Of a DNA stretch of 22,338 nt, positions 2,616-14,865 are shown one piece after another (positions within the stretch are counted from its first letter, which is position 1; every line of letters begins with the position of its first letter). The position numbers and the translations under genes are program-made. A model generated the notes under the pieces. It was not told where the DNA came from and did no database searches. It worked only from the letters and a program-made list of their open reading frames with translations. Source of the stretch: a virus; IMG/VR virus record IMGVR_UViG_3300042515_001452, positions 1-22,338 of that record. One strand, given 5' to 3'.

Positions 2616-3245
2616 TTAAGGAGCGTTGATCGCATCCAAGGCTGCCTTCATCCGCCAGTACCTCTCGGTGGTCTCCGGGGTAGCCTCTCCAAGCCAAGGC
2701 GCATTTTCGTCTTTGGGTTCTTTGGGACCGCTGCCGCCCCTCAAGGGCGAGCGAGCGGGCTCCCTTCTCCTTTCTTTGTTAGACCCGCTGCCGCTTGAGG
2801 CGGCGCGGTCTAACTGTTCTTTATTCTTATTAAGGTAGGACTCACAGTCCTTCGGCGGTAGGGACTCACAGTCCTTCGGCAATGTGGACTCACAGTCCCT
2901 ACGTTGGGACTCACAGTCCCTACTAATCGAGGCCAAAAAAAAGGCGTTTCGGATGTTTCTCCTGCTGCCATTTGCACCCGAAAAGACCCTCACAAGCCCT
3001 GCTTTTTGGAGGTCAGCCAAGCATCTCTGGACAGTCTTTGTTGAGCACTTCAAGTACTCCGCGAGCTGGTCGTAACTGGCAGCAAACCTCCGCTTGTGGT
3101 CACTCGCTGCCGCGCTTTGGAAGTGGGTCAAGGCGCAGTAGACTGCGTAGTGGTTGGTGCCAAGTTGACCAGCCTGGGCGGCAGCATCTCTGGCCTGCCA
3201 ACCCCACGGTCCTTCTTCTCTCGGGTTCTCAGATCTCGGTGTCAT
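2616..3245 (-). CDS. Winged-helix replication initiator-like protein (lambda O analogue)
   Basis: This 209-residue protein has an N-terminal winged-helix domain (about residues 18-105) with a clear helix-turn-helix (SYDQLAEYLKCSTKTVQRCL) followed by a wing. A linker then carries four [R/K]DCES units (residues 109-136), and the tail is polar and basic with a final helix near 190-205. Winged-helix proteins beside a DnaB-type helicase usually act as replication initiators or helicase loaders. The DNA coding for the DCES units is a set of four palindromic iterons, so the gene probably contains its own origin, as lambda gene O does. The start at 3245 overlaps the upstream stop as ATGA; the TTG at 3254 is the alternative. 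The initiator role is inferred from domain, context and iterons. Confidence 0.8.
   Translation of the reverse strand: MTPRSENPREEGPWGWQARDAAAQAGQLGTNHYAVYCALTHFQSAAASDHKRRFAASYDQLAEYLKCSTKTVQRCLADLQKAGLVRVFSGANGSRRNIRNAFFLASISRDCESQRRDCESTLPKDCESLPPKDCESYLNKNKEQLDRAASSGSGSNKERRREPARSPLRGGSGPKEPKDENAPWLGEATPETTERYWRMKAALDAINAP
2779..2813. repeat. Long inverted repeat beside the iterons
   Basis: The arms TTAGACC and GGTCTAA pair perfectly. Pairing continues inward through GC-rich sequence (GC, then GCCGC with GCGGC) with two single-base bulges and a 5-nt loop TTGAG, giving about 14 base pairs. It lies inside the initiator-like gene, coding for a low-complexity LDRAASSGSGS linker, so the DNA structure may matter more than the peptide. 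It adjoins an AT-rich tract at 2811-2835. Confidence 0.75.
2811..2919. other. Putative replication origin: four iterons plus AT-rich tract
   Basis: GGACTCACAGTCC, itself a palindrome (GGACT-CAC-AGTCC), occurs perfectly four times at 2838-2850, 2862-2874, 2886-2898 and 2907-2919. Start-to-start spacing is 24, 24 and 21 bp, about two helical turns each. A tract of roughly 25 nt with about 6 G/C (2811-2835) lies on the downstream side relative to the gene and could be the unwinding element. In lambda, four iterons with internal dyad symmetry followed by an AT-rich region lie within the initiator gene O, and the arrangement here matches. Function is inferred, but the repeat geometry is directly visible. 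Confidence 0.7.
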
Positions 3246-3790
3246 TGTTCGCAACTGTACACTGTTTCCTGAAGTTTCAACTTTGGAAGCTCCTCTGTAG
3301 TGAAGCTGTGGTCGATGAAGCGCACCCTGTTAGTTGGCTGGATAGTCAGCCGGCCATTGTTCAGCTTCACAAAAATGAACTCTTTGTCCTGCTCTGGAGC
3401 GTCTGACCAGCCGTCATGTAGATGGGCAGTGGAGAAGAGATATTCCCCTTGCAGCACCTTGTCCTCAACCCTTACAGACACCTGCATCCCACGCATAATC
3501 GGGTTCTGGAGGACCGTGAAATCATAGCTGTAACAGTCCCAAAGCTGGGCTTGGCTGATCTCCCATTCCTGTCCTGGATCTGCGGTGAAGGAGACAGCAT
3601 GAGGCGGGATATTGCGGTACAGTGCACCCCCGTCTCGAAGGATCACATTGATCCCCCATGCTCGCCCAGGGATAGATGTCAGGCCCACCCACATAGCCTC
3701 GACTAAACCTACAGGCTCCTCGTGCGTGTAGGCACTGTCCACCCAGATGTACCTGTGAGTCTGTAGTGCTCCGATCTTTGTGTAGTTCAT
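3242..3790 (-). CDS. Conserved phage protein of unknown function
   Basis: This 182-residue protein is rich in aromatic residues and likely beta-structured. Distinct blocks include THRYIWVDSAYTHEEP near the start, a GRAWGINVILRDGGALYRN block, and DAPEQDKEFIFVKLNNGRL near the C-terminus. I recall similar proteins in phage replication regions annotated only as hypothetical, so I regard it as a real family without a known activity. It starts by ATGA overlap with the helicase-type ATPase, with an AGAAGG sequence upstream, and ends by ATGA overlap with the initiator-like gene. Lying between these two suggests a replication role, which is inference from position only. Confidence 0.75.
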   Translation of the reverse strand: MNYTKIGALQTHRYIWVDSAYTHEEPVGLVEAMWVGLTSIPGRAWGINVILRDGGALYRNIPPHAVSFTADPGQEWEISQAQLWDCYSYDFTVLQNPIMRGMQVSVRVEDKVLQGEYLFSTAHLHDGWSDAPEQDKEFIFVKLNNGRLTIQPTNRVRFIDHSFTTEELPKLKLQETVYSCEQ

Positions 3791-5139
3791 TTCCTTCTCT
3801 TTGGTTTCTCTTCTTCTTCGTCGAGTACTGGCTTCCTACAAGGCTGCCAAATCATCCCGTGCCTCTCAGGTTCGTTACTGTGCCTGATGTGTATCCTCGA
3901 TGCCGGCTTGAGCGAGTCGAAGCAGATCATGCCTGCTCTGAGCCTACGCTTGGTCATCGTCAGACTACATGTCGGAGGATCGTTTGGAGGCGTCTCGACA
4001 CGTTGGAGTGTCACTACCTCTCTGGCCCAGTTGGTCAGTGCTGATGAGCCAAAGCCGGCATAGGCCAAGTCAGAGTCTGTGCGTGCAGATCCTTCCCGGG
4101 GCTTGGGCAGATGGTGGATGAGCGCCATGACTACCCCTGTCTTGGAGCTGATCCTGTTCAACCCATTGCAAAACTCTGTGACCACCTTCTGGTCGCTGAT
4201 GTCGTCTCCAACGTAACACATGAGCGGGTCGATCCACGCTATGTCAGGCTGGTGTTTGATGACCAGGGCTTCGAGGACTCGCAGGAACTCAGCCCCTGAA
4301 TGCACGTTGTCGCGGTAGAACACCAGTCGCTCGTTCAGGTCGTTCCTGACTGGCTCGTCGCAGTGGTGCTTCCCGTACTTCGAGATGACTGACTGGAGAA
4401 TCTCAGACTGGTCTCCAATGTCGTTCTCGGCTTGCAGGATCAGGCTTTTAAGGGGTCTCACCGGGATGATGCCAAAGGTGAGGAGATCGACGAACACAGT
4501 GCGCTCAGGAGTGTCCCTAGGCATGGCCCAGCCGATTGCCAACTGCATCGTCAGACTGCTCTTGCCGATCCCGCTCTGGGCGTTGATGAGAACTGAACCT
4601 CCTTTGCAAATCCATCTGTTCCCGATCAGTGTGTTTCTATCGCACTCTGTATCATACGAGAGTAGCTCATTGAACGTGGACTGTACTATAGACCCAAGTC
4701 CCTGCTCTGCGCCGGCAACTGTAACAGCCTCTCCTAGGTCCCTGACAACCTCTCCGGTAGACTCACCTTCTGAGATAGCCTTAGTGGCTTGTGTAAGTCT
4801 GGTAAGGAGATCCCTGCGCCGGGATGCGTCCTGTACGAGCCTGCACCACTCGGGTAGTGGTTCGAGACTTGGAAAGCCTGCCGCGAGGTCAGAGAGCAGA
4901 TGAAACGGAATGCTCTGGCCTGCGAGTCTGTGGAACAGTGCAATGGGATCTAGACTGGCTCCTTCCTCGGCAGCTTCCTTGATCCCCTCGAAGATTGCCT
5001 TGAACTGGGGATGCAGGAAGTCTGTGCCGGCTAGGCCCGTCTGGATAACGGTAGACCAAGCTGTCTGTGGCTGGAACAGGAGACAGCCCAGCACTGCCCG
5101 CTCGGCTTGTTCAGCCTGCGGGGTCTTTAGGTCTCTCAT
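3787..5139 (-). CDS. DnaB-N / RecA-fold replicative helicase-type ATPase
   Basis: This 450-residue protein opens with a DnaB N-terminal-like helical domain (about residues 6-115; TPQAEQAERAVLGCLLFQP is typical). It continues into a RecA-type ATPase core with Walker A AQSGIGKSS at 187-195 and a Walker B-like DIAWIDPL ending near residue 305. An IHHLPKP motif near 347 is common in AAA_25/RepA-like helicases. The tail is Lys/Arg/Glu-rich. It probably unwinds DNA at the phage fork, loaded by the winged-helix protein two genes downstream. I chose the ATG at 5139, four bases after the previous stop; longer forms would overlap that gene and lack family support. Confidence 0.88.
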   Translation of the reverse strand: MRDLKTPQAEQAERAVLGCLLFQPQTAWSTVIQTGLAGTDFLHPQFKAIFEGIKEAAEEGASLDPIALFHRLAGQSIPFHLLSDLAAGFPSLEPLPEWCRLVQDASRRRDLLTRLTQATKAISEGESTGEVVRDLGEAVTVAGAEQGLGSIVQSTFNELLSYDTECDRNTLIGNRWICKGGSVLINAQSGIGKSSLTMQLAIGWAMPRDTPERTVFVDLLTFGIIPVRPLKSLILQAENDIGDQSEILQSVISKYGKHHCDEPVRNDLNERLVFYRDNVHSGAEFLRVLEALVIKHQPDIAWIDPLMCYVGDDISDQKVVTEFCNGLNRISSKTGVVMALIHHLPKPREGSARTDSDLAYAGFGSSALTNWAREVVTLQRVETPPNDPPTCSLTMTKRRLRAGMICFDSLKPASRIHIRHSNEPERHGMIWQPCRKPVLDEEEEKPKRRK

Positions 5140-5143
5140 TGGC

Positions 5144-5359
5144 TTAGAGAGTCGCCTCGTGTCGCATCTGTGCTCTCTCAAGCGGAGAGAGTAGATCGAC
5201 TGTCATCTTGCCTTCGAAAATCTGGATAGCCTTTGCAAGGAGTAGCGTCTCCAGTTTGTTTGGATCGAGTCCCTGGTGCCCATTCGCCTTCAGGTTCTTG
5301 TCCGTATTGAGCAGTTGTTGCGCAATGCGCTCTGCCACTTCTCGATCTTGTTTCAACAT
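5144..5359 (-). CDS. Small helical protein in the replication operon
   Basis: This 71-residue protein is hydrophilic and alpha-helical, beginning MLKQDREVAERIAQQLLN and ending LSPLERAQMRHEATL. The ATG at 5359 is preferred because it follows a 55-nt spacer after the SSB-like gene, and the stop is four bases before the helicase-type start. The leader is A/C-rich (GGAACACACAC) without a Shine-Dalgarno sequence. No family is recognised. Its place between the SSB-like protein and the helicase suggests a replication accessory role, but nothing in the sequence proves it. Confidence 0.7.
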   Translation of the reverse strand: MLKQDREVAERIAQQLLNTDKNLKANGHQGLDPNKLETLLLAKAIQIFEGKMTVDLLSPLERAQMRHEATL

Positions 5360-5414: not shown

Positions 5415-5816
5415 TTAGAACGGGATCTCGTCGCCAGTAGTGTCCGTAGACTCGCTACCTGGTGGCAGCCACCTCTTGATCTCAAGGTACGGCTTGCCGG
5501 TCTTCTCATTGATCCGCTCGCCTTCACCCAGTTCGACTGTCGCAGTCTTACCAATGCAGTCCTCTGTCTCAATGGTCAGAGTCTTGCCTTCAACAACCTT
5601 CTTTCCGATGGAAGTGGCAAACTCAGCCACGTTCCTGCTGTTCTTGGTCGTAAAGACCACCCAAGAGTTGAAAGTGAGACTTCCCACTTTGACTTTGAGT
5701 TTGAGCATCTCATTCCCAGCATTCGAGACTGCTTCCGCTGCGTCATCAATGATGGCACTGTGAATGCCTGCTTTGATGCTAACCTGTTCCGATTTGTCGA
5801 TTTTGATCGAGGGCAT
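5415..5816 (-). CDS. DUF669/SSB-like single-strand DNA-binding protein
   Basis: This 133-residue protein is mostly beta-strand in pattern, with blocks GNEMLKLKVKVG, a WVVFTTKNS segment and a DCIGKTATVELGEG strand pair, as in DUF669-type phage proteins. It ends in an acidic tail, TDTTGDEIPF, that closely resembles the DDIPF tip bacterial SSB uses to recruit partner proteins. I infer single-strand DNA binding plus docking of recombination or replication partners. It lies between the RecT-like gene and the helicase block, where phage SSB proteins are common. The start follows a 30-nt leader made largely of CAAAA units, without a Shine-Dalgarno sequence. Confidence 0.75.
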   Translation of the reverse strand: MPSIKIDKSEQVSIKAGIHSAIIDDAAEAVSNAGNEMLKLKVKVGSLTFNSWVVFTTKNSRNVAEFATSIGKKVVEGKTLTIETEDCIGKTATVELGEGERINEKTGKPYLEIKRWLPPGSESTDTTGDEIPF

Positions 5817-11500: not shown

Positions 11501-11791
11501 TCAAAAGATCCACGAGCGCAACCATGCCACAAAGACACAGGCTAGGGAAGGCAGAATGAAGTCGAGCAATCCTTTGAGCGTCCAAGCACGAGGCTCTAGA
11601 CCGCCGAAGTAAGGCATGTTTGCTCGCCGGCCTCCGTAGTTGTGCTCGATGTTGCGATACTCTGCCTGGGCGTACTCGCGGCCCACAAAGTAAAACGAGC
11701 CAGCAGCAGCACCAGTCCACCAGTCACCGCTTACAAGACCAATGACAGCCTGTATCACTAGGGCGATAACTGGGTGGGCGAGGTGGTTCAC
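11501..11791 (-). CDS. Conserved phage membrane protein
   Basis: This 96-residue protein has an N-terminal hydrophobic region ([17 protein letters not shown], then [14 protein letters not shown]), a polar central [19 protein letters not shown] block, and a C-terminal hydrophobic helix ([17 protein letters not shown]). The [10 protein letters not shown] motif between membrane segments is familiar from small proteins next to tail genes in other phages. The start is GTG, overlapping the previous stop as GTGA. It lies between the tail-fibre cassette and the lysis block. Function is unknown. Confidence 0.75.
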
Positions 11792-11997
11792 AGGTTATTT
11801 GGTGAATCGTCCACTTGCGGAAGATTACGGTTGCTGCCAGTGGGCATATCGTCGTCTTCGCGCTGATCAAACTGACGCTGGATCTGGCTGTTGATACTGA
11901 CAATCAACGGAGCAGCGACTCTGTATGGAACTTCACCAAGAGCGGCATTGAGTACTTGGAGTTGTTCTTGGGTAAAGGTAAGTGTAATTGATTTCAT
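11788..11997 (-). CDS. Small tail-region protein, copy 2 of a duplicated gene
   Basis: This 69-residue protein is a close paralogue of the one at 12986-13192: by hand alignment about 10 substitutions and one inserted residue, roughly 84% identical. It begins with [20 protein letters not shown], continues through a PYRVAAPLI helix, then has an acidic REDDD stretch and a PTGSN...SPNNL tail. It starts by TAATG overlap with the receptor-binding protein gene and ends by GTGA overlap with the membrane protein. The two copies bracket that receptor-binding gene. Function is unknown; a chaperone or assembly partner for the adjacent fibre is an inference. Confidence 0.8.
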
Positions 11998-12989
11998 TAT
12001 ACTGCGTAATAAGGTATCTTGCGCTGAGTCCCGTTAATGTAAGTCACAACATATCCAGCAATCGCTCCAGCGGTAGGTGATGTGTCTTGGTTGTCATACC
12101 AAAGCGGTTTTGACACAACCACAGTATCGAGATCAAAGCCAATATACATTTTGTTGTCCGTCCCAACAAAAAGCGAATTTAATTCAGCATTTCCAGCCGC
12201 GTTTCTCCAACGAATCACAGAGTTATTTGGGAGCAGAACGGCTGCTTGTGCGTAAGAGCCAACAGATAAATCAAGACCGTATTGCAATCCTGTCTGATAG
12301 CATCCAAACGCAGTATGGTTTACTGACTTTGTGCCAATCCCCTGTTGCCCGGGTCCAACCATAAAACCACACTGTGGAGCAGATGCGGTCGTGTTGAATG
12401 GATTCACCAAAAACCCAGCACTTGGACGGTTGCCCAATCTTGCAGTAGCATTAAATGAAGATGAAATTTTGTTGATGTTGAACAAAACTGGAGCTGGAGC
12501 ATCTCCATTGTAAGTTATAACTTCTGATTCACATCCAATAACATAATCACTTGCTGGTGTATGTGTGGTATCTCCAGATTGTGCCAAAGCAATCAATCCA
12601 TAAACATCACCCTTTAGTGCGGATGTTACGTTGATTCCAGCAAATCTCCCGCCTTCAACAAAACTTCCAACTCCTCCAGCGGAATCTATCGCTTCGCCAT
12701 AGAAGCCCTGAACTCTGCTGTTTGCTGATGTTGCTGTCTTATATCCAACTGCAAAACACGCTGGATTCTGCGTTCCAGAAACATCTCCTCTGGAGCTATA
12801 CTTTGCAAATGACGCAGGAGTTCCATTAGTAGCTATTGGGGCAGAGCTTGTGCCCAAAATGCCTGTGTAAACAGACTCTGCTACAAGTGGGTTAAAGTAA
12901 AATCCAACCGTTGGTGCCGCTGTTGTGTTTTGCCCCGGAACAACAATGTTACAGAGCTTTGATGCGTTTTGAAAAGATTTGCTGCTCAT
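11997..12989 (-). CDS. Probable receptor-binding / tail fibre-type protein
   Basis: This 330-residue protein is rich in Gly, Ala, Ser, Thr and Asn with a beta-strand pattern and no catalytic motif. The C-terminus ([20 protein letters not shown], then YYAV) resembles the end of many phage tail-fibre or spike proteins, where a GYVxTYINGTxxKIPYY strand caps the structure. It has no head-binding domain, so it likely attaches through another tail protein, perhaps the spike encoded upstream. Base composition is clearly more AT-rich than flanking genes (one sampled 60-nt row has 22 G/C), a common sign of acquired adhesin sequence. It lies between two copies of a small gene. Confidence 0.7.
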
Positions 12990-13192
12990 AGGTTGTTTGG
13001 TGAGGCGTCAGTCTGTGGCAGGTTGTGGTTGCTCCCGGTGGGTGCGTCGTCGTCCTCGCGCTGAAACTGCCGTTGAATCTGGCTGTTAATACTAGCGATC
13101 AGTGGTGCAGCAACCCGGTATGGAACGTCTCCAAGGGCCGCATTAAGGATGTGAAGTTGCTCTTGAGTAAAAGTGAGTGTGACTGTTTTCAT
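12986..13192 (-). CDS. Small tail-region protein, copy 1 of a duplicated gene
   Basis: This 68-residue protein is the paralogue of the one at 11788-11997, with the same TLTFTQEQL start, the [20 protein letters not shown] helix and the SPNNL end. I set the start at 13192, where ATG overlaps the tailspike stop as TAATG; an upstream ATG would extend it into the spike gene. The stop overlaps the next start as ATGA. Each copy follows directly after an adhesin gene, which suggests a protein paired with each adhesin. This pairing is seen in the layout; the role is inferred. Confidence 0.8.
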   Translation of the reverse strand: MKTVTLTFTQEQLHILNAALGDVPYRVAAPLIASINSQIQRQFQREDDDAPTGSNHNLPQTDASPNNL

Positions 13193-14865
13193 TACGGAAC
13201 AATATTTAGCACAGATCCATTTATCCAAACATCTCCAGAAACAAGCCCGGCAGAAGATGTTGGCAATCCAGACATATTTGCTTTACCAGTAAGCAAAAGT
13301 TTACCAAAAGCAGTTCCTGTATCTATTTTTAGATTCCCAGAAGAGTCTCCAAAAATTCGTGGTGATCCATTTGCAAAATCAACTCCAAAGAAAATTGCGT
13401 TTGTGATCCCAGTTGAAAGCCTTATCGCAGTATCACTGTAAGTCCCTCCAGTTGCATTTATGAGGGTTGCCATTGTTGCCCCAGATTGAGCTGCAACTCC
13501 GGCTCCAGAAACTCCATTTATTACAATTCCATTATTCCAACTTCCCCCACTAACACCTCCAATTTGAATTGCTGGTACTGATGTTGGTATTGTGAATATA
13601 TTTAATGCCAGCCCAATTGAGTTGCTGTTAATTGTTGTTCCAGATGCTGGTTGTATATCAATCTCTAATCCAACAAGTTTTACGTTGTTTGCACCAGAGT
13701 CGTTTCTAGCAATAAAATTAGCAGCAAACACTATGTCGTCAGTTGTTCTGGAAACACAATCAGACATTATTCCAACAACATCAGTATTTGTATTTTTGTT
13801 ATTTGCAAATACAAACAAAGCAGTAGCAGGAGATGGAGTTGTGGAATTATATCCAGAATCAAATGTTTTGCTGATTCCTTGAAATGTAAAAGTTTTTCCG
13901 GGCCAGATTCCAGCTTCTCCCTTCAATGAGTATTCGGATTCTTCAACAATTCCCTCTATGCCCATAACTGATCCAGCAACTGCCGCTGCTTGGGATCGTG
14001 TTGCGGCTCCAGACCCAGATTGACGAAAAATAGTTCCTCCAGAAATGGAGCCAGTGCCAGAAGTGTATGCTCCAGATTCAAAAACAACACTAACGCTGCT
14101 CGTTAAAGTAATTGAAGATGTGATTCTATAGTTTCCGGGAGGGAACGCAACGTATACAGCGCCACTTGTAACTGCTGCCTGAATTGCCGGAGCGTCATTC
14201 GTAGCGCCATCTCCCACCGCTCCAAAATCCTTTACAGACACGCTCTCGCGGACCTTGTCCTGCATGTTCCGCGTAACAGCGCCTGCACCGGCTTGAAGGA
14301 ACGAAACCTGCGATCCGGGAACCTGATTGCCGGTTACTACTGTGCCACCTTGAAACAAAAACTGGTCACCAAGAGCAGCCGGCGCAGTCAGTGTCACAGT
14401 CGAGGAGTTCGTCTCCAAGTAGTCCAGACCAAGGTTTAGCCTGAGCCCATTTCGGAAGACCTGCAACGTGTCAGTACCGGGCAGGTAGCTAAACACGGTC
14501 AGCGTAAACGTAGTCTGGCTCGCAGTAGCAGTGATGAGTTGCGTGGAGATGTCGAAGACCGAACTAGGCGAGTCAGTCTGGTCAAACGCAGAGAAGACTA
14601 GAGCACGATTCTTGTTCCTGACAGTGATCGAGTATGTGTCAGTCGCAGAGTAGAACCTGCTAGGCGTTCCCTGTCTGCTTGGATAGCCACCAACAGTACG
14701 AACAGGCTGGGCAGCAGGAATGGTCAATGCAGCGTCCCAGAACACGTTTACAGGGGCTGTCTCTGGGTTCAGGTTAGACTGGCCGATGTAGATGTACCCG
14801 CCCTCTAGCGGGGCTCCTGTCGTGTCAGTGAAGAATGGGAATGGAGATACGATGGAAGAGGACAT
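13192..14865 (-). CDS. P22-like tailspike / tail fibre protein
   Basis: This 557-residue protein begins with a P22-tailspike-type head-binding region (about 1-115; note SPFPFFTDTTGAPLEGGYIY and IGQSNLNP). A connecting beta-domain follows to about 200, then SVKDFGAVGDGATNDAPAIQ (210-229), the typical start of a pectate-lyase-like beta-helix. The rest is Ser/Thr/Gly/Asn-rich beta sequence ending GDVWINGSVLNIVP, a common spike terminus. It should bind or cleave a surface polysaccharide; no catalytic residues can be assigned. Base composition turns AT-rich beyond about 14150 (after residue 240), consistent with exchange of the receptor-binding part. The start overlaps the previous stop as TAATG, with an AGGAG Shine-Dalgarno sequence upstream. 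Confidence 0.88.
   Translation of the reverse strand: MSSSIVSPFPFFTDTTGAPLEGGYIYIGQSNLNPETAPVNVFWDAALTIPAAQPVRTVGGYPSRQGTPSRFYSATDTYSITVRNKNRALVFSAFDQTDSPSSVFDISTQLITATASQTTFTLTVFSYLPGTDTLQVFRNGLRLNLGLDYLETNSSTVTLTAPAALGDQFLFQGGTVVTGNQVPGSQVSFLQAGAGAVTRNMQDKVRESVSVKDFGAVGDGATNDAPAIQAAVTSGAVYVAFPPGNYRITSSITLTSSVSVVFESGAYTSGTGSISGGTIFRQSGSGAATRSQAAAVAGSVMGIEGIVEESEYSLKGEAGIWPGKTFTFQGISKTFDSGYNSTTPSPATALFVFANNKNTNTDVVGIMSDCVSRTTDDIVFAANFIARNDSGANNVKLVGLEIDIQPASGTTINSNSIGLALNIFTIPTSVPAIQIGGVSGGSWNNGIVINGVSGAGVAAQSGATMATLINATGGTYSDTAIRLSTGITNAIFFGVDFANGSPRIFGDSSGNLKIDTGTAFGKLLLTGKANMSGLPTSSAGLVSGDVWINGSVLNIVP

Follow-up and report, generated by a model that had tools for sequence, protein, structure and literature searches.

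A putative lambda-type replication origin within a phage initiator gene and exchange of its iteron types among relatives

The IMG/VR record IMGVR_UViG_3300042515_001452, a virus fragment of 22,338 bases analysed over its whole length and hereafter called the window, carries an element that is very probably (probability about 0.88) a lambda-type replication origin located in the disordered linker region of its own initiator gene. Its elements come in the same order as in the lambda ori in gene O (J02459), where four iterons of dyad symmetry are followed by an A/purine-rich tract and an inverted repeat. This order supports the proposal of a lambda-like origin inside the initiator gene, which an earlier sequence-only reading had made. 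The lambda ori likewise lies inside its initiator gene and has an iteron spacing of 20–24 bp. Origins of this kind are already known; the number of iteron types, their exchange, the residue–base rules and two covarying hairpins appear to be new in the light of the papers searched.

The array consists of four exact copies of the palindrome GGACTCACAGTCC, at 2907–2919 (iteron 1), 2886–2898 (iteron 2), 2862–2874 (iteron 3) and 2838–2850 (iteron 4). The four perfect copies and their spacing of 24, 24 and 21 nt between the starts at 2838, 2862, 2886 and 2907 were as described in the sequence-only reading. GGACTCACAGTCC is the sole 13-mer that occurs four times in the window, and no copy was found outside the array in the 22,338-base record with one mismatch allowed. 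The iterons sit about 330 nt downstream of the initiator start. They are preceded by a T8 tract on the minus strand (2934–2941), which is part of the FFL codons. On the hairpin side, next to iteron 4, lies an easily melted tract (2811–2832; purine-rich on the minus strand) that is a putative DNA unwinding element. The AT-rich tract claimed beside the array is thus real and stronger than claimed: by nearest-neighbour stability it is the least stable of all 22-mers in the window. It is placed between the iterons and hairpin 1 (2778–2814), which has 15 pairs and corresponds to the inverted repeat of about 14 bp previously noted at 2779–2813. The DNA fold of hairpin 1 had a z score of about -6, and 0 of 200 shuffled sequences folded equally well. 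A second conserved hairpin (hairpin 2; 2721–2764), absent from the earlier reading, is the strongest predicted hairpin of the window. No clear GC-skew switch was visible in the window, which is uninformative for a record that is a fragment.

The initiator gene (2616–3245, minus strand) encodes 209 amino acids counted from its ATG, which overlaps the stop codon of the preceding gene (ATGA, 3245–3242). Both this length and the winged helix assigned to the product earlier were confirmed. An alternative TTG start at 3254 adds three residues, and residue numbers given here follow the resulting 212-aa form. An AlphaFold model of moderate confidence (mean pLDDT 57.6; about 70–88 in the winged helix) predicted a winged helix at residues 16–111, disorder at residues 112–189 and a C-terminal helix at residues 193–210. 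The helix of residues 72–84 (codons 3003–3041, minus strand) was placed in the recognition position of the winged helix. Since the linker is disordered in the model, the origin would be written in linker codons where the constraint on the peptide is weak.

All the 28 initiators scanned matched PHROGs of replication initiation (best E value 9e-14). The profiles of the phage replication initiators of PHROGs 270, 678, 391 and 186 were matched by all or most members, with the matches centred on the winged helix; PHROGs 678 and 391 are O-like. Comparison of the profile with a single lambda O sequence gave an hhalign probability of 0.1, although a comparison with one sequence is a weak test. In staphylococcal plasmids, iterons lie inside the rep gene for RepA. 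The best Foldseek neighbours of the initiator include a plasmid replication initiator, and the winged-helix RepA of staphylococcal plasmids was among the neighbours (PDB 4pql, 4pt7 and 5kbj) with a weak E value of 6e-3. RepA is an initiator of plasmids, not phages, and its likeness to the window's protein is structural. A RepA_N domain was not among the Pfam matches of the window's initiator.

The window encodes a DnaB-type replicative helicase (3787–5181, minus strand; DnaB N-terminal domain and AAA_25) upstream of the initiator and on the same strand. The sequence-only reading had placed this gene next to the initiator; in the window a 182-aa gene of PHROG 3704 (3242–3790, minus strand) intervenes, so that the helicase is one gene away. 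The PHROG label of the intervening gene is ferredoxin (E value 8e-32), a name that looks doubtful. The gene went undetected in many relatives, where the helicase and initiator genes touch. A single-strand DNA binding protein-like gene (5415–5816, minus strand) belongs to the same replication module, and RecT, a Holliday resolvase and an exonuclease are further neighbours of the array. In the relatives, a DnaB-type helicase is found beside the initiator and, in most of them, a single-strand DNA binding protein as well. The helicase is phage-encoded, and no gene was recognised that resembles P, the separate helicase loader by which host DnaB is recruited in lambda. In the search for a prophage or host, the helicase gave only distant matches (21–25% identity).

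Elsewhere in the window, two near-identical small genes (11788–11997 and 12986–13228) flank a 330-aa gene (11997–12989) and represent a duplication. Near the left end, GAAAAAGGGGACCCGT occurs in three exact copies (48–63, 191–206 and 1222–1237), two of which are preceded by TTTCTCAAAAGTGA; the expected number for its 15-mer core is 0.02. These repeats could be phage promoters or regulator sites, and they had no match in any locus fetched for comparison.

Two scans of viral contigs yielded 43 relatives, which together with the window represent 39 distinct initiator proteins. A tblastn search of 50,697 phage records gave no relative of the initiator, and neither did plasmid records or prokaryote genome contigs; these sources revealed no cultured relative, prophage or host. 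The layout is constant across the relatives: a T-tract (T8 in most), four or five iterons, an easily melted tract, hairpin 1 and hairpin 2. The palindromic sites directly follow a conserved FFL/FCL block in all of them. Most relatives have four iterons, with start spacings nearly always of 21, 24 and 24 nt, and five sites were found in L012 and L050–L052. Beyond the iterons comes a purine-rich tract and then hairpin 1, whose core usually lies 30 nt from the last iteron; the remaining genes have 28, 31 or 45 nt here. The least stable 22-mer within the gene abuts the last iteron in 31 of the 39 genes. In eight contigs of up to 41 kb, as well as in the window, iterons were found at the origin alone, and only those of the contig's own type. 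Arrays of GGACTCACAGTCC adjoining TATATATA tracts were also observed in L005 (1630–1695), L007 (8394–8459) and L009 (5343–5408), where they fall in no ORF of at least 100 aa.

Both hairpins show covariation. Over 22 distinct sequences of hairpin 1, 98.8% of the pairs are kept, compared with 33–52% in slid controls. Ten of its 15 pairs have changed on both sides among relatives, and compensatory changes were found in six of the 13 pairs of hairpin 2. In most genes tested, both hairpins were more stable than their synonymous resamplings. The window shares 25–27 identical nucleotides of hairpin 1 with other phages in which they are translated in a different frame, the two readings of the identical DNA being DRAASSGSGSN and SAPPQAAAG. 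The frame change is due to a gain of one nucleotide or a loss of two in the preceding tract, which gives the spacing of 31 or 28 nt instead of 30 nt. In this element the constraint acts on DNA, with the hairpins conserved as structures and not as sequence or peptide. Hairpin 1 DNA occurred once per contig in 12 contigs, and the contigs that were recognised belong to the initiator group. The idea of a mobile palindromic element was dropped given this single copy per contig.

Compensatory stem changes are also what would be expected of RNA, and on the plus strand there is a T-rich tract just after hairpin 1. The hairpins might therefore act in RNA, outside the origin, in mRNA stability or in termination of antisense transcription. 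We regard this as the less likely reading of the hairpins. A terminator scan found no terminator-like site at hairpin 1 and Rfam gave no match, and both an intrinsic terminator and a known RNA family were dropped as candidates. Against it also stand the spacing of 30 nt from the last iteron in most genes and the presence of a hairpin at this place both in lambda and in divergent initiators located next to related helicases.

The initiator family comprises at least six iteron types, each with its own recognition helix, and the types are keyed to residues 72, 73, 76 and 77. The type of the window, GGACT-N3-AGTCC, goes with TKQR. The others are CGCCY-N3-RGGCG (QRCR), ACCCT-N3-AGGGT (KNAR and KNSR), TGACT-N3-AGTCA (ERAR), GTNCA-N5-TGNAC (RGKT, RGKA and RGNS) and GGTCA-N5-TGACC (RGRI). 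The type assigned from the DNA alone was the type assigned from the helix in all 39 genes, and further KN-type genes reached through the helicase also match helix to iteron type. The distance between iteron profiles correlated with the distance between recognition helices (r = 0.89), and did so when the N-terminus, wing and C-terminus were controlled for (partial r = 0.86, P = 0.0005). Correlations with the other parts of the initiator were lower (N-terminus, r = 0.43; wing block, r = 0.36; C-terminus, r = 0.13). The columns that best track the iterons are 72, 73, 80, 90, 76 and 81, mostly in the predicted helix 72–84. Two residue–base rules hold almost without exception: an R at residue 72 (R72) is accompanied by G at half-site position 7 (0.99 in 20 genes, compared with 0.31 in the other 24), and an R at residue 77 (R77) by C at half-site position 3 (0.995 in 25 genes, compared with 0.000 in 19).

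Five loci (L147, L148, L150, L152 and L153) encode helicases 52–54% identical to that of the window followed by very different winged-helix initiators, which carry palindrome arrays, purine-rich tracts and hairpins of their own. L147 and L153, with R72, have G7 in every arm. L152, with R77, has C3 in every arm and G7 only in part, and C3 is present in L147 without R77. A search for pairs of GGACTCACAGTCC elsewhere led to unrelated O-like phage initiators in L006 (3173–3268) and L008 (locus minus strand), whose linkers contain the window's GGACTGTGAGTCC iteron and which have an R where residue 77 would fall. This likeness could be convergence or a shared recognition rule. The helices of L147, L152, L153, L006 and L008 were aligned by eye and had been seen before the rule was written; therefore, these cases are support, not blind tests.

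A match between helix and repeat would suit a repressor and its operator too. Winged helices are common in repressors, and the structural matches of the initiator include CRP and MarR-type regulators. The repeats might thus be operators at which the protein represses its own gene from within, with replication starting elsewhere. This is improbable, because the sites lie about 330 nt into the gene and nowhere else in the window or the eight contigs, and because the PHROGs matched comprise replication initiators and O-like proteins. Autorepression would also leave the adjacent least-stable DNA and the helicase neighbour unexplained. Winged-helix proteins bind repeat arrays in partition systems too, and one Foldseek match was TubR. 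A partition or DNA-packaging site read by the winged-helix protein is nevertheless more doubtful still, as no partition ATPase was recognised beside the array, where replication and recombination genes (helicase, SSB, RecT, Holliday resolvase and exonuclease) are found instead, and initiator PHROGs match all the members scanned.

The iterons, like the hairpins, are constrained as DNA. With the peptide fixed and codons redrawn from the genes' own usage in 1,000 draws, 678 arm pairs were observed over the 39 genes against 364 ± 10 in the synonymous resamplings (maximum 393), and the pairing was significant in each gene alone (P <= 0.004). The iteron bases are thus conserved beyond the peptide, the point on which the sequence-only reading had proposed a check. 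The peptides encoded by the iterons vary freely among relatives (DCES, DYKS, APQA, PSQG and TPHGR) while the DNA arms still pair; in L043, the peptides alternate between DCES and DYKS with invariant GGACT...AGTCC arms. Many sites of the SRG_K type depart from a perfect palindrome. That the repeats are in frame with spacings in multiples of three would suit a constraint on the DCES peptide alone, with DNA identity as a by-product, but this reading was rejected as practically untenable in view of the L043 arms, the synonymous-codon null and the identical hairpin DNA read in two frames.

On the tree of the neighbouring helicases, the iteron type changes at least 17 times, where the minimum possible is 5 and shuffled types give 17.7. 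Therefore, iteron type is unrelated to helicase kinship, and origin specificity has been exchanged between close relatives. In sliding pairwise profiles, such relatives are nearly identical on either side and lose identity mainly at the helix and the iterons, while sharing the block that separates the two. For example, L043 and L049 are 42–82% identical from the gene start to the end of the iterons and 92–100% identical past the hairpin. Variants of hairpin 1 track the C-terminus rather than the helix. About 70–100 bp separate the helix from the iterons, and a single recombination tract probably carries both, so that the 17 switches do not represent 17 independent re-evolutions. This physical linkage could account for part of the joint change in helix and iterons. 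Linkage alone, however, leaves the residue–base rules and the near-invariant intervening block unexplained. We tentatively propose, at somewhat less than even odds, that origin specificities are exchangeable private alleles, that a short cassette of helix and iterons is swapped far faster than the helicase evolves, and that the hairpins are functional.

The lambda origin inside gene O has been a textbook case for decades. The origin described here differs from it in iteron length, in the phage-encoded helicase just upstream, in the second hairpin and in its at least six interchangeable iteron types. The O initiators of Stx phages have iterons in the middle of the gene, with a copy number that varies (six versus four) (PMC7466680). 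The initiators of that study keep lambda-like iterons, whereas the window's family has swapped the iteron sequence itself. For co-varying recognition helices and iterons in phage origins, our literature search came close only with a study of PLE, satellites in Vibrio cholerae, in which RepA_N domains and origins covary as an exchangeable module and origin swapping was proposed to be driven by evasion of an origin-directed nuclease (PMC8263062). In PLE the origin is noncoding, and the reported swap exchanges replicon modules. In the window's family the origin occupies linker codons, and the exchange can be traced to a recognition helix and its iterons. No precedent for type swapping, residue–base rules or covarying origin hairpins was found in the literature searched. 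Ectopic copies of the cognate origin were reported to arrest lambda proliferation (PMC4488673), and such arrest is a possible further driver of type swapping.

Lambda O binds its iterons as dimers and opens the A+T-rich region (PMC5043065). By analogy with lambda (PMC5043065, PMC7466680), we infer that dimers of the winged-helix initiator would bind the four palindromic iterons, each half-site being read by one recognition helix. Once bound, the array would distort the DNA and open the adjacent least-stable tract at 2811–2832, where the phage's DnaB-type helicase would be loaded and the element would act as an origin. As a guess, the hairpins may form a structure in the single strand exposed by this opening and so serve helicase loading or priming.

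These phages, a group for which no cultured relative was found, thus combine the anatomy of the lambda origin with at least six natural specificity types, or more if the divergent initiators beside related helicases are counted. The DNA element shares one reading frame with the protein that it overlaps, and conservation of a hairpin across two frames makes an unusually clean case for selection on DNA within a coding sequence; hairpins at the origin are of interest in lambda also. Because the helix and its matching repeats are exchanged together, a recognition code can be read from sequence, and both the reading of bases by residues in a winged-helix initiator and diversifying selection on origin type become testable. 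If the proposed exchange of private alleles is true, the initiator–origin pairs would be a natural, base-resolved recognition code and the conserved hairpins an unrecognised functional part of the origin. Swapping may then be a means of evading relatives in co-infection, satellites, decoy origins or nucleases directed at the origin.
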